The notes beneath the pieces are model-generated. The model was given only the letters and a program-made list of their open reading frames with translations. It did not search any database and was not told where the DNA came from. 23,947 nucleotides of DNA from a virus: the IMG/VR virus record IMGVR_UViG_3300007540_000105, positions 1-23,947 of that record; one strand, written 5' to 3'. Of the stretch, positions 1,856 to 17,996 are shown one piece after another. Within the stretch, counting starts at the first letter, position 1; each line of letters starts with the position of its first letter. The translations under genes and the position numbers were made by a program.

Positions 1856-3625
1856 GTGAACGAACAATCCTCCCCATATCACGGCATGGCGCAGCAGATT
1901 CAGTCACGGGGCCGTGGCGAAGATTCCATGCTGATCCACATGACCCCCAACGAGATTAACAGTCTTCAAGGGTTGGCCATGGCGCATGGAGGCTCACTCA
2001 CGATTAACCCTGATACGGGTCTTCCAGAGGCTGGGTTCTTGTCTAGTATTCTCCCTATGGTAGCAGGTGGATTGCTTGCAGCCACGGGAGTCGGTGCGCC
2101 TCTTGCTGCTGCTATGGTAGGTGGAGGCACTGGGATACTTACTGGTGATCTTAACAAAGGCCTTATGGCTGGCCTCGGTGCCTTCGGTGGCGCGGGTCTA
2201 GCTAGTGGTCTTGGCGCAGGTAGCACCCTCCTAGGAGGCAATGCTGGGGGTATTCTTGGCAGTAACTCTGGTATGTTTGGGGCAAATATGGGCGCGGGCG
2301 CAGCCACTACGGGCGCAGCCACTACGGGCGCAGCCACAGGAGCAGCCGCAGGCGCAGTTCCGGGCGCAGCCGCAGCCCCAATCAACCCGCTAACAGGGGC
2401 ACCACAGATTATGGGTGGTGCAGCAGATGCTGCGCTAACCGCTCCAATGTCCGGTGCGAACGTGACGGGACAACTCGCCGCTATGCAGGGCGGGGCTATG
2501 CCGGGGGCAGGAGGATTTATACCCCCAGTTAATCCAATGACAGGTGCCGCACAGGGTATGGCTACGGCTATGCCTTCAGCGCCCTCTGCTGCTAGCCTAG
2601 CGCCACAAATGACTGCGGGCGCGAACGCCGGTATGGCTAATGTGTCTGCGCCCCAAGGGGGATTCCTCAGTAAATTTGGTGACGCCACGCGTATTGCAGA
2701 CAGTGGTATGCTGAAGAACGCTGGGCCTATTATGGGTGGTTTGGGTGTCCTAGGAGGCGTTAGTGGCGCTTTGGAACAGGATTATAAATCTCCTGAGAAG
2801 GAAAACAAATATCCTTACGAGGGTCCTTATCTCCCGAAGGATCGTGGTTATACAGAGCGTAATCCAATGGCCACTTCGTCCGAACAAATGTGGTTCCAAA
2901 ACCCTAACGCTGGTTACTATGGCTCCCAGAACCCCCCCGAGGGGTACGCTGGTGGTGGCGAAGTAGACCACGGGTTCTCTCAAGTATCAATGGCGTCCCC
3001 CATTGGCGGCGCTGGAGGGTATGGAGGATATGGCGGCTTCGGGGGTATGGACGTTACGAGTGGGGGCGGGGGGCTTGCAGCGATGATACAGCAGGCCATG
3101 CAAAAGCAGGGGGGCGGCCCGACAGGCCCAACCCCTTCGCCACAGGCGCAAGCGCAACCGCAGATGCCTCCGCAGGGGCAGCAGAACCCGTTCAGCTTTA
3201 ATAACGTCCCGAACCCAAACAACCTTCAGGCACCTGACTGGCATAAACAAGCCATGCAGGGTGGTGGGCAGCAGCCAGTGGGCCTACAGGACGACTCCTT
3301 TGTAGTTGATGCACGCACGGTATCCGAATTGGGCAACGGTAGTAGTGGTGCAGGGCAGGAGTTCCTATCTCGTTACGGCGGTATGCCCGTTAGGGGCCGC
3401 GGCGATGGGGTCAGCGATGACGTACCCGCGAGCATTAACGGTAACGCACCAGCCAGAGTGGCCCGTGATGAAGTAATCTTCTCCCCTAACTCCGTTAGGA
3501 TGATGGGTGGGGGCAACGTGGAAAAAGGTGCGAACAAACTGTACGCCCTGATGGATAAAGCGCAGAAGTCCCGCCAGAAAGCCAAGCGCGGCCACGATAG
3601 CAAACTGACCCAGAGGGCGATGTAA
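1856..3625 (+). CDS. Gly/Ala-rich virion protein with duplicated C-terminal motif
   Basis: This 589-residue protein starts at a GTG preceded by AGGAA (1845-1849) at good spacing. Residues 21-40 (GEDSMLIHMTPNEINSLQGL) and 41-60 match a conserved N-terminal block that I recall from uncultured marine phage structural proteins. Residues 61-100 are hydrophobic and Gly/Ala-rich, followed by a long low-complexity Ala/Gly/Thr/Pro region (to about residue 265), a GGGEV motif near residue 367, and a Pro/Gln-rich stretch. The C-terminus carries two related 25-30 residue segments, at about 479-507 and 538-567, each with the pattern D..(F/V)....V...(L/M)G.G....G...L. It sits between tail and ejection-type genes and ends in a TAATG overlap with the next gene. 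A virion or ejection role is inferred from position and composition; no enzymatic motif is visible. Confidence 0.65.
   Translation: MNEQSSPYHGMAQQIQSRGRGEDSMLIHMTPNEINSLQGLAMAHGGSLTINPDTGLPEAGFLSSILPMVAGGLLAATGVGAPLAAAMVGGGTGILTGDLNKGLMAGLGAFGGAGLASGLGAGSTLLGGNAGGILGSNSGMFGANMGAGAATTGAATTGAATGAAAGAVPGAAAAPINPLTGAPQIMGGAADAALTAPMSGANVTGQLAAMQGGAMPGAGGFIPPVNPMTGAAQGMATAMPSAPSAASLAPQMTAGANAGMANVSAPQGGFLSKFGDATRIADSGMLKNAGPIMGGLGVLGGVSGALEQDYKSPEKENKYPYEGPYLPKDRGYTERNPMATSSEQMWFQNPNAGYYGSQNPPEGYAGGGEVDHGFSQVSMASPIGGAGGYGGYGGFGGMDVTSGGGGLAAMIQQAMQKQGGGPTGPTPSPQAQAQPQMPPQGQQNPFSFNNVPNPNNLQAPDWHKQAMQGGGQQPVGLQDDSFVVDARTVSELGNGSSGAGQEFLSRYGGMPVRGRGDGVSDDVPASINGNAPARVARDEVIFSPNSVRMMGGGNVEKGANKLYALMDKAQKSRQKAKRGHDSKLTQRAM
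2296..2337 (+). repeat. 15-base tandem repeat in Ala/Gly/Thr-rich coding region
   Basis: The 15-base unit GGGCGCAGCCACTAC occurs at 2296-2310 and 2311-2325, followed by a partial third copy (first 12 bases) at 2326-2337. It encodes repeated Gly-Ala-Ala-Thr-Thr in frame. The length is a multiple of three, so copy-number change would not shift the frame. Confidence 0.9.
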
Positions 3626-4092
3626 TGTTGGTAGAGAAAATACCCATGCAGGCGTCCATGGTCCCTAACGAACTAGCAAGGGAACTATGGCCTGATATCG
3701 AGGAATATATAGAGAAGGGCGCTGCCTACTCCGGTGGCCGGTACGAGCCAGAAGATATTCTCGCTCTCGTGGAAACCCTTGGTTATAAACTCTGGATCGC
3801 TTTTGATGGTACTGGTATTAAAGGAGCCGTAGTTACGGGGTTTGTACAATACCCACGCCTGAAGGCTCTGGATATGATGTTTATTGGTGGCGAAGACGGG
3901 CCGGAATGGAAACTACCAATGCTGAACCTACTTAAAAAGTGGGGGGCAGACAACGGCTGCGTGAAGTTAGAAGCTATGGGCCGCGAAGGCTGGGAGCGTA
4001 TGTTCAAGGACGAGGGGGCCAAGCGGCGTTGGCTGGCTTTTGAAATTGATATCGCTCCTGCTGAAGTAGCCAAAGAGAAGGTGGATGTATAA
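3625..4092 (+). CDS. GNAT-like phage protein of unknown role
   Basis: This 155-residue protein is coupled to its neighbours on both sides by TAATG overlaps. Residues 20-60 read like a helical lead-in and first strands (LWPDIEEYIEKGAAYSGGRY, then LGYKLWIAF). Residues 65-90 include GAVVTGFVQYPRLKALDMMF, and residues 103-130 contain KKWGADNGCVKLEAMGREGW. The WA..NGC..(L/I)EA.GR.GW..M....G pattern is what I recall from short phage proteins with a GNAT (N-acetyltransferase) fold. The acetyl-CoA-binding R/Q-x-x-G-x-G/A loop is not obvious, so catalytic activity is doubtful. T7 gp13, from the same genomic position next to ejection-protein genes, is a small protein that has been compared with GNAT folds. 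A similar assembly role here is only an analogy. Confidence 0.58.
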   Translation: MLVEKIPMQASMVPNELARELWPDIEEYIEKGAAYSGGRYEPEDILALVETLGYKLWIAFDGTGIKGAVVTGFVQYPRLKALDMMFIGGEDGPEWKLPMLNLLKKWGADNGCVKLEAMGREGWERMFKDEGAKRRWLAFEIDIAPAEVAKEKVDV

Positions 4093-6401
4093 TGGGCGGA
4101 TCTAAAGCTCCAACAGAGCAACAAGTCACTACTACCACCAGCAATCTGCCGGAGTACGCGGAACCCTATTTCATGAATATGATGGGGGCGGCGCAGGCGA
4201 ACCTTAACCAGCCTTATCAGCCCTATACCGCTGAACGACAGGCGGATTTCAACCCCTACCAGTTGCAGAGCCAGCAGAATGTAATGGGTATGCAGCAGCC
4301 GGGGCAGATGGCTGATGCTTCCAACCTAGCCACTACGGCGGGCTTAGGCGCTCTAGGTGCGGGTCAGTATAACCCATACCAATTCTCTTCCCAGCAAATT
4401 GGCCAGCCCAATCTTAACCAATACCAGATGGGGAGTGTGGGAGGTGTAAACTACCAGAACGCTAGCGCACCGCAGACGGGCGCGGCGCAGACAGGGTATC
4501 AAGCGAATTTGCAGAATATGCAGATGGGCTTGCCCGGAATGGTGAACCCGTCCACGCAGCAGGGTGGCTCTATGCAGGCTGCACAGTCTGGCTATTCACC
4601 TAACCTGCAAAATATCATGATGGGCAATGTGGGCGATGTAAGCGCACAGCAATATGGCTCCCCCCAGATGCAGGGCGGGCAGACTAGCTTTAACCCCAAC
4701 CTGCAACAATACCAGATGGACCAAGCGCAGCAGGTGTCCGGGTTTGGTGTGGACCCTAATGCTACCCCGCAGATGCAGGGTGCGCAGTCTAACTACAACC
4801 CCATGTTGCAGCAGTTCCAGATGCAGCAGCCAGAAATGTTTGGCCAGCAGCAAGCCGACCAGTATATGTCGCCATATATCCAGAATGTGGTGGATACGAC
4901 CAAACGGGAAGCCATAACTGACGCCAAGAAGGGCCAACTTGTAGACGACCTAGGCGCAGCGCGGCAGGGCACCTACGGTGGTTCGCGGCAGCTTCTTGCG
5001 GGGATGGAGCGCGAGCGTGGCCTGAACCAGAACCTGAGTGATATTCAGTATAAAGGCCTCCAAGGGGCGTATGAGAACGCGCAGCAGCAGTTCGAGCGTG
5101 ACCGTGGCGCTGGAATGTCCGCGGACCAGACCAACCTACAGGCACGCCTCGGGGTGCAGGAACTGGGTACGCAGACTGGTATGCAACAATCGCTGGCGAA
5201 TATGAGTTCGCAGCAGCAAGCAAACGTCCAGAACCAAGCGGCGCAGCTACAGAACCAAGGACTTAATGCTGACCAAGCTATGCGCGCTGCACTTGCAAAC
5301 CAACAGGCTGGCTTACAGGTGGGACAGTCTAACTTACAGGCGGCTCTAGGCACGCAAGAACTGGGTGCTAATGTTGGTATGCAGACCGCGTTTGCTAACC
5401 TTGACGCGGGGCAGCAGACTGCGGTGCAGAACCTTGCCGCCAGCCTACAGACGCAGGGGCTTAATGCAGACCAAGCGATGCGCGCTGCACTCGCTAACCA
5501 AGGTGTTGATCTATCAATAGCACAAGGTAATCAGCAGTCGGGCTTGCAGACGCAAGGTTTGCAGACCTCTACTGATATGCAGATGGCGCTGTCTAACATG
5601 GACAGCCAACAGCAGGCGAACGTGCAGAACCTTGCGGCCAACTTGCAGACGCAGGGGCTGAACGCAGACCAAGCGATGCGGGCGGCTCTCTCCAACCAGC
5701 AGGCGCAGTTGTCTACTGGACAGGCGAATTTGGATGCTGGGCTACAAACCCAAGGGCTACAGACGCAGGCAGATATGCAAACTGCGTTTGCCAACCTCGA
5801 CTCCCAATCACAGGCTAATGTGCAGAACCTACAGGCACAGCTACAGACACAGGGCATGAACGCTGAACAGGCGATGCGGGCGGCGCTCTCCAACCAGCAG
5901 ATGCAGTATAATGTCGGCCAGACCAACCTTGGCGCGGCTATGGACACGCAGCAGCTTGGGGCTACCCTTGGCTTGCAGGGGGCGCAGGCTAACCAGCAGG
6001 CAAACCTCGACGCGCAGCGTATGTACGAGCAGTCCCGCCAGTTTGGTGGGGGTCTTGCTATGCAGGGGTATCAGACTGCATTAGACAGCGCCAATAGCCT
6101 AGGCCAGCTTGGCCAAACACAGCAGCAATTAGACCTCCAACGTTACGCCGCGCAACAAGGTGTGGGCGACCAATACCAGCAGGCGCAGCAGACGCAGTTG
6201 GACCAGCAATATGCTGACTTCCTGCGCCAGAGGGATTATAGCAACGAGCAGCTAGGGTATTACAACAACCTGCTCCGCGGCCTCCCTATGACGATGGGGT
6301 CTACGGCAACTACTTACGCTGCACCTACTTCCTTAGCCAGTCAGGTCGGTGGTTTGGGGCTTGGTGGGTTGAGCATGTATAATATGTATCAAGGGGGCTA
6401 A
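4092..6401 (+). CDS. Gln-rich repeat protein, probable internal/ejection virion protein
   Basis: This 769-residue protein has four parts. Residues about 103-250 hold five imperfect ~32-residue repeats centred on (Y/F)..NLQ...M. Residues 257-341 are a conserved core with QYMSPYIQNVVDTTKREA, GTYGGSRQLLAGMERERGL and IQYKGLQGAYENAQQQFERD, a block I associate with marine podovirus internal proteins. Residues 342-638 are 27 consecutive 11-residue repeats. The C-terminus has a helix-rich segment with ADFLRQRDYSNEQLGYYNN and ends in a Gly/Leu/Met-rich tail. It contains no Cys and is very rich in Gln, Ala and Asn. It overlaps the upstream gene by TAATG and is one base from the transglycosylase gene downstream, which supports a shared role in DNA ejection. 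That role is inferred; the repeat architecture is directly visible. Confidence 0.68.
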   Translation: MGGSKAPTEQQVTTTTSNLPEYAEPYFMNMMGAAQANLNQPYQPYTAERQADFNPYQLQSQQNVMGMQQPGQMADASNLATTAGLGALGAGQYNPYQFSSQQIGQPNLNQYQMGSVGGVNYQNASAPQTGAAQTGYQANLQNMQMGLPGMVNPSTQQGGSMQAAQSGYSPNLQNIMMGNVGDVSAQQYGSPQMQGGQTSFNPNLQQYQMDQAQQVSGFGVDPNATPQMQGAQSNYNPMLQQFQMQQPEMFGQQQADQYMSPYIQNVVDTTKREAITDAKKGQLVDDLGAARQGTYGGSRQLLAGMERERGLNQNLSDIQYKGLQGAYENAQQQFERDRGAGMSADQTNLQARLGVQELGTQTGMQQSLANMSSQQQANVQNQAAQLQNQGLNADQAMRAALANQQAGLQVGQSNLQAALGTQELGANVGMQTAFANLDAGQQTAVQNLAASLQTQGLNADQAMRAALANQGVDLSIAQGNQQSGLQTQGLQTSTDMQMALSNMDSQQQANVQNLAANLQTQGLNADQAMRAALSNQQAQLSTGQANLDAGLQTQGLQTQADMQTAFANLDSQSQANVQNLQAQLQTQGMNAEQAMRAALSNQQMQYNVGQTNLGAAMDTQQLGATLGLQGAQANQQANLDAQRMYEQSRQFGGGLAMQGYQTALDSANSLGQLGQTQQQLDLQRYAAQQGVGDQYQQAQQTQLDQQYADFLRQRDYSNEQLGYYNNLLRGLPMTMGSTATTYAAPTSLASQVGGLGLGGLSMYNMYQGG
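4404..4850 (+). repeat. Five imperfect ~32-residue coding repeats
   Basis: Related segments begin at about residues 105 (QPNLNQYQMG), 135 (GYQANLQNMQMG), 167 (GYSPNLQNIMMG), 199 (SFNPNLQQYQM) and 234 (NYNPMLQQFQM) of the Gln-rich protein. Spacings are 30, 32, 32 and 35 residues. Each is followed by a Gly/Pro/Gln-rich linker. The repeats are diverged at the DNA level. Confidence 0.75.
5115..6005 (+). repeat. 27 tandem 11-residue repeats nested in a 66-residue super-repeat
   Basis: From residue 342 to 638 the protein divides without a gap into 27 units of 11 residues. Position 1 is usually Leu or Met, position 7 is Asn in 22 of 27 units, and positions 10-11 are usually small. Example units are MRAALANQQAG, LQVGQSNLQAA and MQTAFANLDAG. 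The segment QTQGLNADQAMRAAL or a close variant begins at bases 5250, 5448, 5646 and 5844, exactly 198 bases (66 residues) apart each time. Confidence 0.92.
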
Positions 6402-6402
6402 T

Positions 6403-8088
6403 ATGGTAGACCAAACAACTTCCTTTGACATGATGCAGCCAGAGACAATCGCCAAGGAATACGGCGGTAGCAAGCAGAAGATAGCCCTAGCGATGCAGCA
6501 AGGGCTTGTTGACCCCACAGCGGGCACGCTGGCGGGGATGTTTATTGACCGTATGCGGTCTGGAGATATGCTAGGACAAGGCGCACCGCCTACTGTAGCG
6601 CAGCAGGTGTTCGCACCGCCGCAGCAGCAGCAGGGTGGGCCTCCGCAACCGGGAGGGCCGGGGGCTATGCCTCCTCAACAAGGCATGGGTGGTCCTCCCG
6701 CGGGTATGGGCGGTCCTCCTCCTGAAGGTGCGGTTGTCGCTCCACCTATGCAGGGGTTGACGGACTTGCCTGTACCCGATCAGATGTTTGATGAAGGGCA
6801 GCCTTCTATGGCTGGCGGTGGGCTGGTTGCGTTTGCTGGCGGCGGTGAGGTAGGCTACGACGCCTTCTACAACGCTATCGTGGGCCAAGAGTCTGGTGGC
6901 CGCTATGGTATAGCTAACGCAGAAGGTTCAGGCGCGATGGGGCTGGGGCAGCAAATGCCAGATACAGTAAAAGCAATCGCCAAACGACTTGGGATGCCTT
7001 ACGATCCGGGCAGGATGGCGGGAGACGACCCTGCATCCAGAGCATATCAGGATAAAATAACCGATTCCGCCGTCAAAGAAGCGTGGGATTATGGCGAGGG
7101 CGACCCCGAACTGGCTGCGAAATATTACTTCGCAGGGCCAGACCAGAGCGGCTGGAAAGGCAAGACCGCGAAGTACGCGAAGGACATAAGCAAACGGCTC
7201 GGACGGCCAGATGAAAAACCCCTTAGCGTTGACCAAGCAGCGACGGGGCTAGGTAGCCTCGAACCCGGAATAGCCAGCGAGTACGTTGACGAATACAGGC
7301 AGATGGTGCCCAGAGATTACACCAGCAGGGATGAACTTATGGCGGCGTTGGCCGCGGAGCGGTCCCCTGAGTCCAAGAAGGCACAGAAGGATCAGGATAT
7401 GTGGTCCATGCTGGCGCAAGTTGGCTTCGGCACGGCTGCGGGCAAGTCTGGTAATTTCCTTACCGATCTTGGCCAAGCGGCTAATGCTGCGCTCCCCGCT
7501 GCGCAAGAAGCCACAGCAGCGCGTAAAGCCTCCGATATGGACACCCTGCGCGCACAGGTTGACCTTGAGGCCAGTGGCAATATGGACCGCGAAAGAGACG
7601 CAGGGATGGGCGTTGACCTGTACAAAACTTCTGTCGATAATCTACTACGCAAAGCGATTGCGGACCAAGAAGAGCAACTTAAACGCGAGGGTATGTTGCA
7701 GGAAGAAATACTTGCGGGGCGTCAGGAACGCGGAGCTACTCTGCGTGCAAGAATCGCGTCAGAGGCTTCCAAACCACAGGTCCAGCGGGCTATGGAAATC
7801 CACTACAACGCTATGCGGAACCGCCAGCGCGGGAATTATAAAACGTATGAAAACCGTGGGGCTGCACCTTTTGGCCTGTTCAAAAAGGACGGTAGGCCAA
7901 AAGCAGATACAGAACTACGAGCCATGGCGCTACAGGCGGCTATAGATCAAGAGACGCAAGCTGAAATTACTGCATATGCAGCTAGACCTAGCCAGCAGGC
8001 GGGTGTTGGTATAGGCGGGTATCTAAACCCTGCCGGTGGGGGTGGTGGTAGCCCACCCTCCCTGTCTTCTTTTGATAAGGGTGACTGA
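6403..8088 (+). CDS. Internal virion protein with lytic transglycosylase (SLT) domain
   Basis: This 561-residue protein starts one base after the previous stop. Residues 1-60 are a helical lead (KEYGGSKQKIALAMQQGLVD). Residues 62-125 are Pro/Gln/Gly-rich linker, and GGGLVAFAGGGEV occupies about 138-150. Residues 151-250 form an SLT-type lytic transglycosylase domain: YNAIVGQESGGRYG carries the expected catalytic Glu163, and GAMGLGQQMPDTVKAIAKRL matches the GxxGLxQ(L/M)MP signature. The domain would cleave peptidoglycan by forming 1,6-anhydro ends and open the cell wall during DNA entry. The rest is helical, with MWSMLAQVGFGTAAGKSGNF and a conserved-looking EATAARKASD segment, ending in a Gly-rich tail. 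In T7 the equivalent domain is part of gp16; here it is on a separate, smaller protein next to the giant one. It overlaps the next gene (TGATG). Confidence 0.82.
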   Translation: MVDQTTSFDMMQPETIAKEYGGSKQKIALAMQQGLVDPTAGTLAGMFIDRMRSGDMLGQGAPPTVAQQVFAPPQQQQGGPPQPGGPGAMPPQQGMGGPPAGMGGPPPEGAVVAPPMQGLTDLPVPDQMFDEGQPSMAGGGLVAFAGGGEVGYDAFYNAIVGQESGGRYGIANAEGSGAMGLGQQMPDTVKAIAKRLGMPYDPGRMAGDDPASRAYQDKITDSAVKEAWDYGEGDPELAAKYYFAGPDQSGWKGKTAKYAKDISKRLGRPDEKPLSVDQAATGLGSLEPGIASEYVDEYRQMVPRDYTSRDELMAALAAERSPESKKAQKDQDMWSMLAQVGFGTAAGKSGNFLTDLGQAANAALPAAQEATAARKASDMDTLRAQVDLEASGNMDRERDAGMGVDLYKTSVDNLLRKAIADQEEQLKREGMLQEEILAGRQERGATLRARIASEASKPQVQRAMEIHYNAMRNRQRGNYKTYENRGAAPFGLFKKDGRPKADTELRAMALQAAIDQETQAEITAYAARPSQQAGVGIGGYLNPAGGGGGSPPSLSSFDKGD

Positions 8089-11000
8089 TGCCGTTTGATG
8101 TTCAAGGTGCCCGTAAAGCCGGATATACAGACGCGGAAATAGCTGCGCATCTTGGCAGTAAATACGGGTTCGACACAGATGGGGCTATCGCTGTTGGGTA
8201 TTCCCCGGCGCAAGTGATTGCGCACCTTGCGAACAAGAAGAAGCCTAAAAAGAAGCCCGAGGAAGAAGACCAAGGCTTCCTGCGTTCCGTTGCCGATAGC
8301 CCTGTTATTATGGCCGAAAGCGCCGCTGGTAGTCTTGCCTCTATCCTAGAGGTATTTGGCGCGGACAACCCTGTGTCCAAGACTTTAGACGACACAGCCC
8401 AATGGTTTAACAGCTTCCGTTCCGCGCAGTCGAAGAAGGACGCCGCGGAGCAGCAGCGCCTGCTGAAAGCAGCAGAAGACAAGGGTATATGGGAGAACGT
8501 AAAAGCTGCGGGTAATGCGATAGGGGTTGCTCCCCTTGATACTCTAGCTATGGTTGTGGGTAGCGCAGCGCCCTACGTTGCCTCTATACTTGGCGGGGCA
8601 GTTGTTGCTGGGGGTGTCGCTGTTGCTGGTGGTACTGGCGTAGTCAAAGGCTCCATTTACGACGCCACAGAAGAAGCACTTATCCAGAACGGTGTTTCCC
8701 CAGAAGAAGCCGCTAAAGCCGCCGATGAAGCCCAGTCCTACACTGGGGAAAACCTAGATATGATTGCCTTGGGTGGTGTTATCGGGGGCATTGCAAACAG
8801 AGTGGGCCTAGAACCTGCGCTGGCTAAATCCATTGGTATACAGGCCGTCAAAAATGCTGTGGCCAAAGGAGCGATTAAGCAGGGCGCGAAAGAATTTGCC
8901 AAAGAAGGCGTGACTGAAGCAGCGCAGGCTGGGCAAGAACAGCTAGCACAGAATTTGGCCCAACAGCGTGTGGGGGTTGATACTCCCCTTTGGCGTGGTG
9001 TGGCTGGGCAGGCAGCGTTTGAAGGTTTGGCAGGTGGTATCCTTGGTGGTAGTGTAGGGGCTAATAATGCTAGAGTAGAGGCGAACAAAGCGAAAGCCAA
9101 AACCAAAACTGGCAAGCGCAGCGCTGCGCAGGAGGCGATAGATGCAGAAGTTGAAGCTATTAGTGACCCAGAAATTGCGGATATTGTCAGAAAATACCGC
9201 AAGGTTGCTGATATACCTATCGCTGATGCAATCCAGCTTGCGACTGCGGAAGTCACCACAAAAAGAAAAAACGCCGCCCGTCCAGCCGCAGCCGACCTCG
9301 CAACCGTTGGAGACACTTTACCAGACGCCGGGAGCGCCGCCGCAGCCCCTGACCCTGCCGGAAGTCTCAACGGCTTTCGCCGTACTGGTCAGCCCGATAC
9401 CGTTGGCGGAGCAGAACCTACCACCGCGCCTAGCAATGTTACAGACGGAGGAGTGGCAACACCTAGCGCACTGGTATCTGGGAGTGAAGCAGGAACAGGA
9501 GCAGCAAACGATACATTAGTCGCGCCCACGCTTACTGCCGAGACGCAAGCTGTAGACGCTGCCGAAGCCACCACTAATGTTAATCTGACACCTGACAAAA
9601 AAGAGCGCGTTGTCGCTGGCCTTGCCACGAAGCCTGAACTTGCTACCGACCCCGCAACGGTAGAGGAAGTTGTGCGTGTCGCGGATGCGCTGCCGCTGAT
9701 AAACCCACTATTAGACGAAACGCCCGCCGATGTGGCGCAGACAACTCTAGCTACGGAGCCTCTAGCTACGAGAGAAAGCGTAGCGCTACCTGATGTGCTC
9801 CCTACGGCTACTACCGAGGCGCAAGTAGACCTTACCGAGCCTGTGTTGGATTTGACCCCCCGCGTGGCCAACGCCAGTACACTGCGCACGGTAGCGGAGC
9901 GTAGAGCGGCGTTTGTCCCTATCGTGGCGCAAGTAGCGCAGGAGGCTGGAGTCGAACTAGACGCACCCACCACTACAACACTAGTGCAGCAGCTAGCGAC
10001 CAAAAAAGGATCAAACCTCGACCCGCGTGAAGCATTGGGCAAGCTGGTTAATATAACCGCCCCCATGCCTGATATCACGCCAGTAGCCGTCGAGGATGCG
10101 CCCATTGCAGAAGCGCCCGCGCCTGTTGAAGCGCCCGCGCCTATTGCGCCAGCCGTCGAGGCTGCGCCTATTACACCCCCAGTAACAACGCCAGAAATAG
10201 CCCCGGCTTTAGAAGCGGCTGCAAACCCCGAAAATGCGCCAGTTCCCGAAGCAGATGTTGTAGCCCCGGCGTTAAATATCAACGAAGAAGCCCCTACGCC
10301 AGTAGCCATAGATAACGCACCACTAGACTCTAATCCTGAGTTTGTAGATGCTGCGCCCGTAGAGGAAGAAGTAGCACCCGCTCCTCTGGACCCCAACCTT
10401 GAGGAACTTTCGTTCCAAGACAAGAAGCGCTTGGCGCTCGACACGTTGAATAATAACCCAGACATTAAAGTGCCTGTGCAGTTCGCCTACGACGAGAAGA
10501 ACAAGAAGTTCCCTTGGAAGATCAACCAACAGAACGCCTTGGGTACGTCGAACACACGTATCATGCAGGATAGCAGCTTCAGCGGCCTTATGCAGCAGAT
10601 TGCTGGCGTGGAAACAGATACCAGTGGTAGAATTAAAAAGGCCCGCAAAGCTGACAGGCAGGCGAAAGCTACCGGTGTGAAGCCTGATTTCCTACGCCCA
10701 GAGGAAGTAGAGACAGGGGCAGATGCAGACCCAGTGCTGACTGATTTCCAGCGCGCTGCCCAAGATTTCACTACGCGCACAGAGGCGCAGTATGGGCCAA
10801 GCTGGGGCATAAGCCCTATGCGTAAGAGCGTCATCCTAGCGGATATCGCTAAGGCTTCGCAGGTAGAAGCCAACAGGACCAAAAATAGGCCTAAATACAA
10901 GCATGATATTGGCAAGAACCTGCTCCCGATAACCAGCAAGTACCAATGGTTTAAGGATTTGGCGGATAAGAAGATTGGCGCAGGCCCAATGGATGAGGAA

Positions 11001-14000
11001 TTGAAAACCCCCCTCTCCCGTGCTTCGCTTAATAAACCCTCCGATGAAGAAATGTCCTCAGAGGTCAAACGCTTGGTCAGGGTTGCTGTAGAGCAGGGGT
11101 CCAGACTGCGCACCCGTGCGGGGGGTAAACCCGCTACGCCTATGTCAGTAGCTGATATAAAGGCCGAGCTTCTCCCTGTGATGCGCAACTGGGACAACAG
11201 CCCCAAACTTGAAGTTGTGGAAGATTACATGTCCCTCCCCGCGGAGGTGCAGGACATACTCGACGGCATGAACGCCACGGACACCACACAGGGTATGATG
11301 CACAAGAATACGTTGTATATTGTGGCCGACAATATCGCCTCCAAAGAAGAGGCAAAGGCTGTGCTGTACCATGAAGCCTTGGGCCATTTAGGGCTGGAAT
11401 TAAGGTTCCAGCAAAAGCTAGGGGAGGTTTTGTCCGACATATACCTAACCAACAAGAAGGTACGGGATGCGGCGGATAAATGGCTGATTGACAACCCTGA
11501 TACCTACAATGGCGCGGAGGACGCGACAGTCCTAGCCACGGAAGAAGTGCTTGCCGGGAGGCAGGAATACGGACCTACTGACGTAGGAGCAATGGCTAGG
11601 TTGGCGGCGGTTGTGCGACAGTTTGGCAGGATGCTGAGTAAAGCCTTCAAACGTATAGTACCCTACACCGATGCTGATGTGCGGGCCATCCTCGCCTCTT
11701 CAGCGAAGGAAGTGACTGGTGGTTATAAGGGCGTTATTGCACCAAATTCCCCCGAGGGTATAGCGATGCGGAAGGCCGCAGCGGCTAATAGCGCTGCGCT
11801 CACAAAGGTACGGGAGTCTGACCTATCTACCAATGGCGGGGCTACGAGTGCTTTGAAAGCCATTGGGGACGCTATCAAGAACGGGCACGACTACAAGAAT
11901 TGGAAACCGGGCATTGAGAAATACGGCAGCCGCTTGTCGTCCGAGAACCTGCAAAAACTTATGATGGCCCTCCCAACTGACGGCATCGTGGGTTGGTATA
12001 GTGATACCTATAAAAAGGTAAGTGGGATGCGGGAGGACACCGACCCCACCCCGCTGGAGCGCCTTAATCGGCTAATCCCCCAAATGACTTCCATGCGTGG
12101 AACAATGGCACGCGCCGCCGGTAAGATGGCAGACAAACTACGTGCGTTTGTTAGCGAGCAGGGGAACGTTGCGCTGGCGGATACGATGCACTTGGCCCGT
12201 GGCAACCGTGTGGACCCCGAGACATTCGGGGATAAAGCATTAGATCAGGTATACGCCGACGACGCCCCTCTCCAGCAGAAGATAAAGAATGGTTCGGGCG
12301 TAAATCTGACCACTCAACAAAAGGCTGGGCACGCTTCTTCAGTAACTGCACGTAAAAACCAAATCAAAGAAGTATATGACGCGTGGAAAACCCTAGGTCA
12401 GCAAGATGGTGGCCATGAAATGTTTGCAGAGGTGCGTGAATACTACTCCACAATGAATAGACTAGAGCGTGCGATGCGGGATAAATATATTCAGGATATG
12501 GATATAGACGAGGATTCCAAGCAGAAGCTACTTGATACTATCCGCAAAGAACAAGAAACCGTTAGCGATGACGATGTAGATGACTCTCTATACCCTAACG
12601 TATACTTCCCATACATGCGGCATGGTAAGTTTTGGCTTAGTATATCTAACCCCGATATGAAGGGCGGGCGTCAGTTTTTCATGTTCGACAGCAGTAAAGA
12701 CCGGAATAAGTACCGTAAGGAACATGCCAAGCAGGTTGGTAGAAGCGCGGAAGACGGTGATTACTTCCGGCAGGGTGAAGACACAGCAGCGATCAAAAAG
12801 AATTTTGAAGAAAATAGCAGTATGTTGCAGGCCCAGTTCGCAATCATAGACAAAATGACGGCCACGGATAACCTCAAATACGACGCCAAGACCTATGGCG
12901 GGAAGCAAGAGGCTGTGGATGCGCTGAAGCAAGACCTGAAGGACGAACTATACCAGACCTATCTGCGCACGCGGCCAGAGGCCTCCCTGCGCAAACGGTA
13001 TATCCATGCGAACAATGTGACGGGTTTTACCAGCGATGTGCTGCGTAATTTTGTCGTGTCTGCGAACCAGTATTCTTCACAGCTAGCGAAGCTGCGGTAC
13101 AGTAAACCCATTGAAGTAGCCATAGAGGAGGCCAACGCCGCGCTGGAAGGTATGCCCCCCTCTATACAGAGCAAGCTAGGGGTAATGACCGACGCAGTGG
13201 CCGCCCGTGCCCGCAAGGTAGTTATGCCGCCCGAGCGCAGCGCTGTTACGTCCGCACTTAGTGAGATATCCTTTGTATGGTTCCTGACCGCACCTGCTAC
13301 TGCCATTATCCAGCTTACTGCTATCCCCATGCGTGTCTTGCCTAGGCTCACCACTGAGTATGGAGAGGTAAAGGGATGGAAGACGCTGGCTAAATTCTCC
13401 GGTGCTTTTTCCATCACGGGAGGGGAGCAGCTTTTCAGTTTGGAGGATTCCCAACTGTTGAGGGATAACCCTATACTGGCCAAGGCGTTCAATACCTTGC
13501 GTGACCATCGGGAGACGTTTGGTACGCTTATCACAGAGGCATTGCGGAACGAAGAAGCCCCGCTAAGTGAAACAAAAAACATGAAGTCCCGCGCTATAAA
13601 GGTAGTGGGCGCAGCGATCTCCGCCACAGAGCGTATGTCTCGCGAAGTAGCAGGGATGGCCACTTTTGAACTAGAGTACGCACGCCTTGGTAAGACGAAA
13701 CCAGACCTTACTCCTGAAGAACGGTTTGAACTGGCTATCGACGCAGCAGCAGATACTGTTAACGCCACTGTCGGTAACTACAGCGAGTTCAATAAGCCAA
13801 CGGTGTTCACGGGGGACATAGGGCGCATGGTGTTCCAGTTCAAAACCTTCTCCGCGATCACATATAAATTCTTCATTGGGGCAGTACAACAAATGGTGAA
13901 GCCATTGAACAAAGGGGACCGTGCCGCCGCGGTACGGGAAATGACAGGGGTGCTGGCTATGGGTTCCCTGTTCTTCGGTGTGACGGGGCTTCCACTATTC

Positions 14001-14882
14001 ACCATGGTTATGTGGCTGATCGACATGGCCCGCGAAATGAACGACGATGACGACGATGACGAGGAAATGCGCCGTCAAAGCCCTTATGGGTCGCACAGCG
14101 CGGAGTATCAGTTCCGTTATGAATGGCTCCCCGAAATGCTTGGGCAAAAGGTAACCGAAGGCGCGGAGTCCACCCGTCTGGTGGACATGCTGCTTAATGG
14201 CCCACTGTCGGAAATGAGCGATGTGAATATTGGGTCGCGTACTAGCTATAACGATATGTGGTTCCGGGATAACTCCCGTGCGGGGGACTCCGCTTTTGAC
14301 TGGTTTGTACACAACACAGTGGGCAACATCCCTGTGCTGTCACTGGCGAGTAACATGAGCCGCGGTGTGGACTATTTTGACAAGGGGGAATACGAAAGGG
14401 GCGTAGAATCTGTAGTCCCTTCCTTCGCGCGTAACACAATGGCGGGTATCCGGTACGCCACTGAGGGGTCCAAGACTAGCGCCGGAGACACTATAATGTC
14501 TGCGGAGGAATTGTCGGACGCTAATATAGCAGCACAGATTCTAGGGTTCCAGCCAACCCGACTGGCGCAAATACAAGAAGAACGTGCGGACAGAAACAAA
14601 CTCGAAGCCAAGGCCGAAGGGAAACGCACAGCACTACTGCGCAGGCTTAACATGGTTAGGACCAGCTACCCTGTGGATAGGGAAAAAGTCATAGATGTTG
14701 TGAAGGAAATGGCTGAATTTAATAAGCAATGGCCTGCCCCAGATATGATTATCACGGAAGAAACGATTGATAAATCCTTCAAGGGCTTCACAGACCGTAA
14801 AGAACTGCAATACCGCGGTAGCATATTCACCAAGAAGGATGCTTATAGAGGTGTCCCCGGCGCTATGCAGGCAGGGGACTAA
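8088..14882 (+). CDS. Giant internal virion (ejection) protein with HExxxH peptidase-like domain
   Basis: This 2264-residue protein has several regions. Two 25-residue repeats lie at 3-47. Residues 146-189 are hydrophobic and Gly/Ala/Val-rich (LGGAVVAGGVAVAGG). A helical region with KEGVTEAAQAGQEQLAQNLA follows. About 400-766 is a low-complexity Ala/Pro/Thr/Glu linker. About 1060-1200 is a zincin-like region with H1095-E-A-L-G-H1100 and a downstream TEE (Glu1152/1153). The next region includes NVYFPYMRHGKFWL (about 1504-1517), as in large multi-domain phage internal or polyvalent proteins. Hydrophobic segments occur at about 1724-1752 and 1953-1981, the second followed by six Asp. Length, position after the transglycosylase gene and hydrophobic segments fit a T7 gp16-like protein that leaves the capsid and helps form a channel across the inner membrane. 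The peptidase activity is unproven. Confidence 0.75.
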   Translation: MPFDVQGARKAGYTDAEIAAHLGSKYGFDTDGAIAVGYSPAQVIAHLANKKKPKKKPEEEDQGFLRSVADSPVIMAESAAGSLASILEVFGADNPVSKTLDDTAQWFNSFRSAQSKKDAAEQQRLLKAAEDKGIWENVKAAGNAIGVAPLDTLAMVVGSAAPYVASILGGAVVAGGVAVAGGTGVVKGSIYDATEEALIQNGVSPEEAAKAADEAQSYTGENLDMIALGGVIGGIANRVGLEPALAKSIGIQAVKNAVAKGAIKQGAKEFAKEGVTEAAQAGQEQLAQNLAQQRVGVDTPLWRGVAGQAAFEGLAGGILGGSVGANNARVEANKAKAKTKTGKRSAAQEAIDAEVEAISDPEIADIVRKYRKVADIPIADAIQLATAEVTTKRKNAARPAAADLATVGDTLPDAGSAAAAPDPAGSLNGFRRTGQPDTVGGAEPTTAPSNVTDGGVATPSALVSGSEAGTGAANDTLVAPTLTAETQAVDAAEATTNVNLTPDKKERVVAGLATKPELATDPATVEEVVRVADALPLINPLLDETPADVAQTTLATEPLATRESVALPDVLPTATTEAQVDLTEPVLDLTPRVANASTLRTVAERRAAFVPIVAQVAQEAGVELDAPTTTTLVQQLATKKGSNLDPREALGKLVNITAPMPDITPVAVEDAPIAEAPAPVEAPAPIAPAVEAAPITPPVTTPEIAPALEAAANPENAPVPEADVVAPALNINEEAPTPVAIDNAPLDSNPEFVDAAPVEEEVAPAPLDPNLEELSFQDKKRLALDTLNNNPDIKVPVQFAYDEKNKKFPWKINQQNALGTSNTRIMQDSSFSGLMQQIAGVETDTSGRIKKARKADRQAKATGVKPDFLRPEEVETGADADPVLTDFQRAAQDFTTRTEAQYGPSWGISPMRKSVILADIAKASQVEANRTKNRPKYKHDIGKNLLPITSKYQWFKDLADKKIGAGPMDEELKTPLSRASLNKPSDEEMSSEVKRLVRVAVEQGSRLRTRAGGKPATPMSVADIKAELLPVMRNWDNSPKLEVVEDYMSLPAEVQDILDGMNATDTTQGMMHKNTLYIVADNIASKEEAKAVLYHEALGHLGLELRFQQKLGEVLSDIYLTNKKVRDAADKWLIDNPDTYNGAEDATVLATEEVLAGRQEYGPTDVGAMARLAAVVRQFGRMLSKAFKRIVPYTDADVRAILASSAKEVTGGYKGVIAPNSPEGIAMRKAAAANSAALTKVRESDLSTNGGATSALKAIGDAIKNGHDYKNWKPGIEKYGSRLSSENLQKLMMALPTDGIVGWYSDTYKKVSGMREDTDPTPLERLNRLIPQMTSMRGTMARAAGKMADKLRAFVSEQGNVALADTMHLARGNRVDPETFGDKALDQVYADDAPLQQKIKNGSGVNLTTQQKAGHASSVTARKNQIKEVYDAWKTLGQQDGGHEMFAEVREYYSTMNRLERAMRDKYIQDMDIDEDSKQKLLDTIRKEQETVSDDDVDDSLYPNVYFPYMRHGKFWLSISNPDMKGGRQFFMFDSSKDRNKYRKEHAKQVGRSAEDGDYFRQGEDTAAIKKNFEENSSMLQAQFAIIDKMTATDNLKYDAKTYGGKQEAVDALKQDLKDELYQTYLRTRPEASLRKRYIHANNVTGFTSDVLRNFVVSANQYSSQLAKLRYSKPIEVAIEEANAALEGMPPSIQSKLGVMTDAVAARARKVVMPPERSAVTSALSEISFVWFLTAPATAIIQLTAIPMRVLPRLTTEYGEVKGWKTLAKFSGAFSITGGEQLFSLEDSQLLRDNPILAKAFNTLRDHRETFGTLITEALRNEEAPLSETKNMKSRAIKVVGAAISATERMSREVAGMATFELEYARLGKTKPDLTPEERFELAIDAAADTVNATVGNYSEFNKPTVFTGDIGRMVFQFKTFSAITYKFFIGAVQQMVKPLNKGDRAAAVREMTGVLAMGSLFFGVTGLPLFTMVMWLIDMAREMNDDDDDDEEMRRQSPYGSHSAEYQFRYEWLPEMLGQKVTEGAESTRLVDMLLNGPLSEMSDVNIGSRTSYNDMWFRDNSRAGDSAFDWFVHNTVGNIPVLSLASNMSRGVDYFDKGEYERGVESVVPSFARNTMAGIRYATEGSKTSAGDTIMSAEELSDANIAAQILGFQPTRLAQIQEERADRNKLEAKAEGKRTALLRRLNMVRTSYPVDREKVIDVVKEMAEFNKQWPAPDMIITEETIDKSFKGFTDRKELQYRGSIFTKKDAYRGVPGAMQAGD
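8094..8228 (+). repeat. Two-copy 25-residue N-terminal repeat
   Basis: Residues 3-22 (FDVQGARKAGYTDAEIAAHL) and 28-47 (FDTDGAIAVGYSPAQVIAHL) align without gaps at a 25-residue offset. Shared positions are FD, GA, GY and AHL. Similar short helical repeats occur at the N-terminus of other large phage internal proteins. Their role is unknown; docking to another virion protein is possible. Confidence 0.8.
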
Positions 14883-14974: not shown

Positions 14975-15175
14975 CTAGATTCTCCATACCCGTAAACCCC
15001 TAATACCATCTACGATCACTACCTTCTGGACCGTCCTGATACGTAGTGACGCTAGGTGGAGTCTAATTTCCCGCCTCACGCGCTTGCAATCAAGGCATGG
15101 AAAGAACAAGTCGCTGCCCTTTTTGAACTTGCTCCACGGTATCTCGTACTGCACTCCTTCAACTATCATCACCAC
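14975..15175 (-). CDS. Small conserved phage protein, unknown function
   Basis: This 66-residue protein overlaps the 3' end of the primase-helicase gene by 17 bases. It can start at GTG (15175) or at the ATG of its third codon (15169). It is basic, with VQYEIPWSKFKKGSDLFFPC (residues 8-27), Cys27 and Cys30, and ends in VVIVDGIRGLRVWRI. The pattern W..F..G..FF(I/V)PCLD....R followed by a terminal G(I/L)RVWR is one I recall from short phage proteins encoded near replication genes. No catalytic motif is visible. The two Cys could bind metal only if paired with another partner. It is the last gene before the minus-strand terminator. Being coupled to the primase suggests a replication accessory, but that is an inference. 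Confidence 0.66.
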   Translation of the reverse strand: MVMIVEGVQYEIPWSKFKKGSDLFFPCLDCKRVRREIRLHLASLRIRTVQKVVIVDGIRGLRVWRI

Positions 15176-17996
15176 CAGCCTGCGCAGTTTCTATGGCATC
15201 ATCAACGTCAAAAAAGTCTGGGTGTCCCCCGTCCAATATCAGGCAGTGGACAGGAGGGTTGCTTATTTTCATACCCTTAGTGACGCGCTTGACCTCTGCG
15301 TCTTTGAATATCCCCTTCGCCTTCAGCAGCTTCAGGGTTTCGGCATAGTCTATCTGATATTCCACACAGTGCTTTTTGAATGGTTTTGTTACGATGTATA
15401 TGTTCTTCGTGTCTGGCTCATAACGTATACGTAGTTCCCCATAGGTAGGGTCAAGCGCCGGAGGGGCGTCCAGCATACTGCGGGCATCTGCATCGCCCTT
15501 GATTACCAACGTGCTTTTGATATTGGAGTTCATGTAATCACCGATAATGCTTACTACGTCCACAACAGGGGCACTGACTTGGCTGCGCATCGTGTCGATC
15601 ATTTCCATTGTGTAATTCAAGATCGGTTTCAAATCCCACGACATTAGGCCACACTTGTCTTGTGCGATCATCCCACCGGCAATGTTGGATGCAGCTACCG
15701 CGGACCATATGCGCTCCCGCTGCGTCAGCCCCAATTCACGGTCAAGGTTCGTCTGCACGCGTCCCACTAGGTCTATGGCTTGCTTCTTATTCTCTACCAG
15801 CCAGCGTATGTATTTAGGACCGGCGTGGCCGTAATTTTGTAGCAACTGGTGATCGAACAACTGTTTGGCTTCTGCTTGGTCTATGGCGTTCACCTGCCGT
15901 ATATGGTACTCAAGCAACCGCATCATTTCACCATCCGCTCCAGTCTTCTTACCACCTAGCTTCTGATAAAATGACGAGTTGGAGGAGCATAGGGCAATTG
16001 TCTGCCAAGAGGTAAGGTTCTGGCGCAGTTCGTTCGTGCTGCCCTTCATACGCTCCTTACCCTTACCCTGCGACACACTGTACGCAAGGGTGGAGAACTC
16101 CCCGTCACTCATATTGGTCATTTCGTCTATGGTGTACGGCAGGTTGTTATAGACACCAAGACGCGTAATCTTCGCGTTCATTGTGTCTTCCTTAATGGTG
16201 CACATCCCTTCGGGGGAGCCGTATACGCTGTTACACATATGCAGAATTGTAGTCTTGCCCGTACCAGAAGTAGGGTAGATCATATTCACGATAGCACCGC
16301 GCTGCCCTGTAAACTTCAGCAGGGGCGAGCCAAACGCCGTCAGGGCTGCAAATGCGTGGGGTTCGAGGCCCGGACGCCCATAGAGGTCAAATACTTCCTT
16401 CCACTTCTCAAACGTGCCCTTGGGGCCGCTATGGGGTATAAGTGGGGCCGTGGTCGTGGAGGGAGGGCTGTTATGGAACCCATCCGCTGCTACTTCCACA
16501 TCACCAATGATAAATTTGGTATCCTTGTCGGCCCACCCAAACTGCACACGCATGTTTTCTCTCCTTCGACTGTTGTTTTGTAAATCGGTTATCATCCGTA
16601 TGATATAGGTTACCAACCATCGGAATTGCTTATCCTCGCAGGCTACCCCTTGGGATGCTAGTACGTCACGCCAATCCCCGTTGCCCTTGATTGCTTTAAG
16701 GGGCACCGTGAACTCCTGCACCCCCTCTGCTGGTAGGTGTAGGCGCATGAGCAATGTCTCACCATCTATGGGGTCGTACATACGCTTCACTACATATAGA
16801 TCGTTACAATATACTAGCCTAGGCTCTGATTCTTCGTCTAGTGCCTCTAACCATATACCGCCCCCCTTGGGCCGCGTGAAACCCCATGGGGGTTCTGGTA
16901 TTTTATATACTATGCCATCTTCCGTTAATTCCCGCTCTTCTTCCGTCGAGGGGACTACGATCTTGCCTAGCTGGATAGGGGTCTTTATCTTGCCCCAATG
17001 CGGGCATGACGGACATATGTTTGGGTTTTCTTGGTCAAATATTGCGCAGCTTTGTGGGCCACCTGTATTGGCGGCTTTTTTGTCTGCGTCCACAGGGTTG
17101 TAGCCGGGGTGGGCTTGAGACAGACTCGTTATCGCCTTGTCACGCTCAATGCACTTGTCTGCTACCGATAGCGCCGCACGCCATAAAGGCTCCGAAAGGG
17201 TGGCGTTGTTGTTTACGCAGTATGTAAGCTGATCGCATCCGTCACCGGCAAGGGTGCGGTCAATGATACGCTTGAAGCTGGTGTCCGTTGCGTCCAGCAG
17301 CTTCTCCCCAAGTTTGGTCTTTCCTCTTGGGGCGTTACCAAACAGGCTGCCCCCTGCCACTGGCGTAGCTACTGAGGCTATCAGGTTCGATATGAAGGGC
17401 GTAGCAAACTCGCTAAGGCTCTGCGGGGTATATTTGTCCTGCATTACCGTTACGTCTCTAGGCGTATCTTCCTTGAAGTTCTTTGTGCCCGGAATACGCA
17501 GGATGCGGGACACTTCAAAGACAGAAGGGTCAATAAGCAGCCCATGTTCCATACATCGGGCCTTTAGCTGCGCCGCTACAGGTTCCCACTGTTCTCTGGT
17601 AGCATCTTCCGCCAACGGCCAATATACGTGAACCCCACCCCCGCTGCTAACAACGATAGGTCTTTTCATACCTACTTCTTTTATGAACCCTCGCAGAGCA
17701 TCTATAGCCTCGTCTTGGGTTGCATAGCCCTTGCCAGCTTTGGCCTTGTCTTCGCCGCAGTCTATGTCTAGCCAGAAAGCACGAAGCGCCTGCACGTTGG
17801 GCTTTGTGCGGCCATCTTTTGTTTTGAATTTTGCGAGGGAGAAGAAAACATTGCGCTTCTGTGCAACCATAGTGGGTACGTAAGCATCCACTTCTGCGCG
17901 GGTCTTGAAAAACTTTTGTACGATGCTACCTTTGATGCTTACTACGCAGAACCACCCTCCGGTGGGCTGCACAATATCCATAAGATCAATAGTCAC
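15159..17996 (-). CDS. Primase-helicase fusion (AEP-type primase plus DUF927/SF3-like ATPase)
   Basis: This 945-residue protein starts at a GTG preceded by GATGGGG at suitable spacing. Residues 70-180 look like an archaeo-eukaryotic primase/polymerase (AEP) core: WLDID with Asp77 and Asp79, SSGGGVHVYW with His123, and VSRILRIPGTKNFK with Arg164/Arg167. Residues 317-333 hold a possible zinc site (Cys317, Cys328, Cys331, His333). The C-terminal half is a helicase-type ATPase with Walker A PTSGTGKTT (Lys581), Walker B YTIDE (Asp624, Glu625) and a sensor-like CSSNSS (about 670-675). The preceding QFGWADKDTKF recalls DUF927 helicases. It should prime and unwind DNA at the phage fork. It follows the HTH gene by 41 bases and overlaps the last small gene. 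Families are assigned from motifs; no polymerase gene is present in the window. Confidence 0.82.
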   Translation of the reverse strand: MTIDLMDIVQPTGGWFCVVSIKGSIVQKFFKTRAEVDAYVPTMVAQKRNVFFSLAKFKTKDGRTKPNVQALRAFWLDIDCGEDKAKAGKGYATQDEAIDALRGFIKEVGMKRPIVVSSGGGVHVYWPLAEDATREQWEPVAAQLKARCMEHGLLIDPSVFEVSRILRIPGTKNFKEDTPRDVTVMQDKYTPQSLSEFATPFISNLIASVATPVAGGSLFGNAPRGKTKLGEKLLDATDTSFKRIIDRTLAGDGCDQLTYCVNNNATLSEPLWRAALSVADKCIERDKAITSLSQAHPGYNPVDADKKAANTGGPQSCAIFDQENPNICPSCPHWGKIKTPIQLGKIVVPSTEEERELTEDGIVYKIPEPPWGFTRPKGGGIWLEALDEESEPRLVYCNDLYVVKRMYDPIDGETLLMRLHLPAEGVQEFTVPLKAIKGNGDWRDVLASQGVACEDKQFRWLVTYIIRMITDLQNNSRRRENMRVQFGWADKDTKFIIGDVEVAADGFHNSPPSTTTAPLIPHSGPKGTFEKWKEVFDLYGRPGLEPHAFAALTAFGSPLLKFTGQRGAIVNMIYPTSGTGKTTILHMCNSVYGSPEGMCTIKEDTMNAKITRLGVYNNLPYTIDEMTNMSDGEFSTLAYSVSQGKGKERMKGSTNELRQNLTSWQTIALCSSNSSFYQKLGGKKTGADGEMMRLLEYHIRQVNAIDQAEAKQLFDHQLLQNYGHAGPKYIRWLVENKKQAIDLVGRVQTNLDRELGLTQRERIWSAVAASNIAGGMIAQDKCGLMSWDLKPILNYTMEMIDTMRSQVSAPVVDVVSIIGDYMNSNIKSTLVIKGDADARSMLDAPPALDPTYGELRIRYEPDTKNIYIVTKPFKKHCVEYQIDYAETLKLLKAKGIFKDAEVKRVTKGMKISNPPVHCLILDGGHPDFFDVDDAIETAQAGGDDS

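Follow-up and report, generated by a model that had tools for sequence, protein, structure and literature searches.

The window analysed here, 23,947 nucleotides of viral DNA (IMG/VR record IMGVR_UViG_3300007540_000105), encodes on its plus strand a protein of 769 residues (4092..6401), recognised by its open reading frame, its relatives and the phrog_4287 match of close homologues. All parts of the chain and the neighbouring cassette genes lie on this strand. An N-terminal domain with an LPEYA..PYF motif (residues 1–48; 4092..4235) is delimited by alignment and contains a helix at residues 24–38 in an AlphaFold2 (AF2) model. It is followed by a Q/G/P/Y-rich N-terminal arm (residues 49–256; 4236..4859), which gains 0.49 residue for every residue added to the helix zone. 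Four arm repeats of ~32 residues with the motif (A/G)(A/G)Q(T/S)x(Y/F) lie at residues 131, 163, 195 and 230 (4482..4859), one per 66-residue module of the downstream array. A conserved core (residues 257–341; 4860..5114), defined by alignment and fixed spacing, runs from QYMSPY through GTYGGSR to AYENAQQQFERDR; the distance from QYMSPY to GTYGG is 36 residues in 99/99 proteins.

Behind the core lies the hendecad zone of 27 units (residues 342–638; 5115..6005), assigned by splitting into 11-mers and by the ladder found in relatives. It comprises module 1 (residues 342–407; 5115..5312), module 2 (408–473; 5313..5510), module 3 (474–539; 5511..5708), module 4 (540–605; 5709..5906) and a terminal half-module of units 25–27 (606–638; 5907..6005). 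The chain ends in a conserved C-terminal domain (residues 646–769; 6027..6398) with EQSRQFG, YxDF and a G-rich end. This part is of fixed length and among the best-conserved regions of the protein; EQSRQFG and YxDF are 61 residues apart in 91 of 92 proteins.

Gene neighbourhood and family identity

Immediately upstream is an acetyltransferase-like gene (3625..4092), annotated as GNAT in the syntenic phage CRP-902; its homologue adjoins in 121 of 181 family loci. An SLT-transglycosylase-like gene follows downstream (6403..8088), and its homologue adjoins in 147 of 178 loci; both counts include some duplicated contigs. The downstream assignment draws on neighbour conservation and on a natural fusion: in MW202675.1 (L200 8974–12531) the family domain, Peptidase_S74 and SLT are joined in a 1185-residue 'internal virion protein D'. 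A third gene (8088..14882), called from its ORF and synteny, encodes a 2264-residue protein in the gp16 position of the ejection cassette, which is presumed to be ejected. The C-terminal third of this large protein matches the giant families phrog_11358 and phrog_10089, 'DarB-like antirestriction'.

The close relative L001 carries terminase (TerL), portal and head genes as well as a separate tail-fibre gene, and a gene for a stabilisation protein (P22 gp10-like) belongs to the gene set of the family. No tail-tube or tape measure family was matched by the ORFs scanned from the head genes to the cassette in L001 and L055, several of which had no match of any kind. Cultured syntenic phages are annotated or named as podophages. 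Together, the stabilisation protein and these podophage names indicate a short tail.

Close short homologues, which align with the window protein over most of its length, match PHROG 4287 'DNA ejection protein' (L013, 4e-16; L024, 6e-30; L027, 1e-17). The label is an annotation; the group includes Sinorhizobium phage phiM5_27, itself a distant homologue, which bears the annotation 'detected in phage particle proteome' and reaches an hhalign probability of 98.7% to the family. The cassette position is also the same. The 392-position profile of PHROG 4287 has no counterpart of the 4.5 hendecad modules and the four arm repeats of the window lineage, which also lacks S74. The window protein itself matches no PHROG profile at E 0.01, probably through dilution of the score by its repeats, and a tblastn search of cultured phages with the entire protein gave no match. 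From homology and gene order, we conclude that the hendecad protein is a predicted ejection-cassette virion protein of a podophage.

An old hendecad array with a strict ladder

Direct splitting bore out the sequence-only reading that residues 342–638 divide without gaps into 27 11-mers, 22 of which carry Asn at position 7; the exceptions are units 2, 8, 14, 20 and 26, exactly every sixth. In 20,000 shuffles of the zone, the Asn count of a column never exceeded 11, and the best column averaged 5.4. The consensus proposed in that reading, (L/M)QT...N..A(A/G), is present as a general form but is looser than claimed: L or M occupies position 1 in 22/27 units, Q position 2 in 16/27, T position 3 in 11/27, A position 10 in 13/27, and A or G position 11 in 13/27. 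In relatives the position-7 exceptions are nearly always Gly, so that the ladder reads NG(NNNNNG)nN. This pattern recurs in nearly all long members, some of which have additional exceptions. By inspection of unit consensus and half-steps, the 66-mer consists of two related 33-residue halves.

No DNA tandem repeat was detected in the hendecad zone. The modules of the window share 59–69% DNA identity, with dS >1.4 or saturated and dN of 0.21–0.35. Judged by this divergence, the repeat is old, and its exact register is therefore not a by-product of recent duplication. Between the window and its nearest relative, L001 (protein 94% identical), dN/dS is ~0.01–0.07 per module.

Zone length changes mostly in whole units

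Relatives were gathered from IMG/VR, and the distance from GTYGG to EQSRQFG was taken in all unique proteins with both motifs. The 22 length classes found are 49, 56, 63, 67, 78, 89, 92, 96, 100, 111, 122, 133, 140, 155, 188, 199, 221, 287, 353, 386, 419 and 485 residues. Seventeen of them equal 1 mod 11 (P ~4e-13 against a uniform null); four of the five remaining classes miss the ladder by 7 residues and one by 3. The arm interval has no such mod-11 effect. The sequence-only reading had held that a ruler or channel role would be favoured if relatives differed by whole 66-residue modules with the register kept. Such changes occur: 89+66k is occupied at every k from 0 to 6, with the window protein at k=4, and the family provides a natural run of lengths, from 0 to 6 modules, between closely related flanks.

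On a maximum-likelihood tree built from the flanking parts, parsimony of lengths with a root of 89 (a root of 63 ties in cost) requires at least 43 changes in zone length, of which 38 are multiples of 11 (20 of 66, 8 of 33, 10 other). With the arm interval as a control on the same tree, 6 of 45 changes are multiples of 11. Whole-unit changes between relatives thus support the earlier suggestion of selection on register. A scan of genome contigs returned three loci.

The N-terminal arm scales in lockstep with the zone

The arm, measured from RxAxF to QYMSPY, was at first treated as a negative control for zone length. It is 76–78 residues long at zone 89 (70 in one protein), 93–94 at 122, 98–99 at 133, 109–110 at 155, 126 at 188, 141–142 at 221, 174–176 at 287, 206–208 at 353, 238–240 at 419 and 270 at 485. 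A linear fit to 72 of 73 proteins gives arm = 33.8 + 0.4897 x zone (slope error 0.0022, r=0.9993), with a residual SD of 1.75 residues over arms of 62–270 residues; 70 of the 72 lie within 3 residues, the two exceptions being L018 (−7) and the 3'-truncated L021. L003, which lies 76 above the line and has a Gly-rich insertion, was left out of the fit.

Shared ancestry leaves the relation intact: independent contrasts of arm and zone correlate at r 0.97–0.997, with the same sign in 45/45 cases for one anchor and 40/41 for the other. Between sister proteins, a difference of 66 in the zone goes with 32 in the arm, or 11 with 6, and the lockstep holds below the size of a module (11 with 6, 33 with 16, 44 with 22). 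A GTFGG subfamily held out of the fit gives a slope of 0.4874 +/− 0.0051 (r=0.9998) at a constant offset of ~+7, and 6/6 of its zone lengths are 1 mod 11. In most members the number of arm motifs equals the number of modules. No coupling to the length of the SLT gene was seen (rho 0.02).

Several proteins depart from the common plan. In L092 and L102 a different 11-mer, SRQFGADFGEK, is expanded at the C-terminal side of the hendecad zone; both obey the lockstep when these units are counted in the zone, a recount made after both had appeared as outliers. The arm of L003 (5995–8682), the sole large positive outlier, is composed of 16–17-residue half-repeats and the Gly-rich insertion of ~75 residues. 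The long distant relatives L180, L182, L191 and L192 (~600–1100 residues) have different anchors and stand outside the lockstep fit.

Why should two arrays in one chain keep step? Unequal crossing-over could by itself yield steps of 66 residues, but arm and zone are separated by a core of fixed length, and no common duplication can couple both. The simplest cause of a ratio that stays constant through some forty changes is that both arrays span the same distance. A straight helix rises 1.5 Å per residue, which would give the arm a rise of 3.06 Å per residue. This value is close to that of an extended or polyproline-II chain and would suit the composition of the arm (6.4% Pro, 9.4% Gly, with Tyr also present). 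The case for a physical ruler rests most strongly on the co-scaling arm, which the sequence-only reading missed. In the open-licence literature we encountered no protein described as having two co-scaling arrays.

Helix geometry and structure prediction

Throughout the family, the hendecad zones contain no Pro in 10,755 residues, as a continuous helix predicts. The AF2 monomer of the window protein has an all-helical zone at low overall confidence (mean pLDDT 55.6, pTM 0.26), and the zone of a k=0 homologue is likewise helical in a model of low confidence (pLDDT 52.9). Both observations favour the helical zone proposed from the sequence. The window model interrupts the helix in each module, near ANL(D/S) and LQTQ, between flanking helices of pLDDT 76–87, and these recurrent breaks count against a continuous helix.

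On an 11/3 wheel, hydrophobic positions form two stripes, 8/1/5 near 0 degrees and 6/10/3 near 160 degrees. Their separation of ~164 degrees explains a peak at 163.6 degrees in the hydrophobic spectrum; this is the second harmonic of 11/3, and a further peak at 98 degrees is the first. For the window zone alone, amphipathicity at 98 degrees is no stronger than in the best shuffle. Asn 7 falls on one polar arc and Gln 2/9 on the opposite one. Position 7, at 229 degrees, thus lies between the two hydrophobic stripes, contrary to the idea of a buried Asn row; the overall interpretation offered by the sequence-only reading is partly supported.

Foldseek/VIA searches with the low-confidence model returned generic long-helix matches only, the best structure matches in BFVD were uncultured phage proteins without names, and PDB sequence searches gave no credible match. 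Two other folds were considered and rejected. A beta-solenoid carrying an Asn ladder might be read from the strongest hydrophobic period, 2.2 residues, but this period is the second harmonic of 11/3, and the Q/A/L-rich composition (V+I 3.6%), the absence of Pro and the AF2 helices oppose such a fold. A long helical hairpin beside a helical arm, with a ratio of 0.5, is disfavoured by the Pro/Gly content of the arm, by steps of 32 rather than 33 and by the single-hendecad steps.

A proposed adjustable rod and its alternatives

The assembly of podophage conduits long enough to cross the envelope, and the control of their length, are understood mainly from a few model phages. We think it probable that this ejection-cassette protein is a rod of adjustable length, a straight hendecad helix with an antiparallel arm, which would most likely serve as a stave of a delivery conduit or scaffold. 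The hendecad zone would form a straight, continuous alpha-helix, 11 residues making three turns, and its two opposite hydrophobic stripes would allow lateral packing of helices into sheets or wide barrels. The chain would run out as the extended arm, turn at the conserved core and return as the hendecad helix. Arm and helix would cover equal distances, which would leave the N-terminal and C-terminal domains next to each other at the same end for any number of modules, each 66-residue module and one 32-residue arm repeat adding ~99 Å. Several staves could then form a conduit or scaffold section of defined length that delivers DNA and partner proteins across the envelope. We give about even chances to the fuller statement that one chain holds two repeat arrays evolving in a fixed metric ratio (66:32, ~99 Å each) as a quantised DNA-delivery rod with its ends joined. 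A straight rod of 53–73 nm, as expected for zones of 353–485 residues, exceeds the typical Gram-negative periplasm, and the conduit role is strained for these long members. The length law amounts to an exact geometric prediction, an arm beside a helix at 3.06 Å versus 1.5 Å per residue and ~10 nm per module, and the lockstep provides evidence, from sequence alone, for a fold that has no confident AF2 monomer model.

Could the rod instead stand outside the particle? A trimeric tail needle or fibre, that is, a coiled-coil appendage of freely variable length with S74-assisted folding in some relatives, would accommodate rods of 50–70 nm. Peptidase_S74, a chaperone domain typical of tail fibres, does occur in the distant relatives L024, L028, phiM5_27 and P0008, and GenBank labels such as 'putative tailspike' and 'tail fiber domain' point the same way. 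The window protein has no S74 match, however, its highly conserved C-terminal part of fixed length is unlike a receptor-binding tip, its gene precedes the cassette transglycosylase and is once fused to it, and L001 has a distinct tail-fibre gene; we regard an appendage as unlikely. Equally unlikely, in our judgement, is an alpha-solenoid in which the modules are short helical hairpins that each bind one arm repeat by sequence, so that the lockstep is stoichiometric rather than metric. The AF2 breaks in every module, the well-scored helices around them and the agreement of motif and module counts speak for such an arrangement. Binding of one repeat per module does not, however, predict steps of 11:6, 33:16 and 44:22 or the behaviour of the L092/L102 11-mer, and no presumed helix start carries a Pro. 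A hairpin layer rises ~10–20 Å, too little for 32 extended residues.

That the protein is the tape measure of a long-tailed phage, with 11-residue helical units setting tail length, seems very improbable to us. Siphophage tape measures do have 11-residue units, which are gained or lost whole, and 11-11-18 patterns have been reported in them (PMC3271669). The hendecad family shares helical 11-residue units and whole-unit length changes with them, and the syntenic CRP-902 protein has 18-residue repeats. Unlike siphophage tape measures, the hendecad family comes with podophage genes, including the stabilisation protein that with the podophage-named syntenic phages suggests a short tail; the L001 and L055 scans yielded no tail-tube or tape measure match. 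It also has no W/F markers, has a co-scaling extended arm, and includes minimal proteins of ~310–370 residues. The hendecad family also links podophage ejection proteins to the unit arithmetic of siphophage tape measures.

Comparison with known delivery proteins

The closest working precedent for the channel suggested by the sequence-only reading is the DNA pilot protein H of phiX174, whose amide-rich hendecad helices form a DNA tube with an amide-lined lumen (PMC7354561). Hendecads and Gln/Asn-rich helices are common to both. H has three hendecads followed by heptads and a fixed length, and forms a decamer of 170 Å for ssDNA (PMC7354561), whereas the hendecad family varies in length. PDB sequence searches with three family alignments gave no match to H (E 1 for one, E 10 for two). 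In the T7 gp14/gp15/gp16 ejectosome, an extended 'molecular tape' contributed by gp16 runs along helical gp15 (PMC8954989). The window cassette resembles it in having three adjacent genes that include a transglycosylase and a giant third protein, and PDB sequence searches gave no match to gp14, gp15 or gp16. In contrast to T7, the tape-like arm and the helix would here share one polypeptide and co-scale.

Further observations

In Roseobacter phage CRP-902, the syntenic gp34 (L031 23465–24907) contains several 18-residue repeats (RFGAEDVMRGQFMEDRQA), and its N-terminal arm has 12-residue repeats (DELLGQYQGATR), a possible second case of paired arrays. Elsewhere in the window, a perfect 15-bp tandem repeat of 2.9 copies (2295–2337) lies within a Gly-rich ORF (1856–3625). 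The gene at the matching position in phage DSL-LC04 carries a tail tape measure annotation, for which PHROG support consists of a short C-terminal motif only. On the minus strand, 15159–17996 encodes a 945-residue DUF927 primase/helicase-like protein; one protein in Pseudomonas phage Rollin matches it at 30% identity over 99%.
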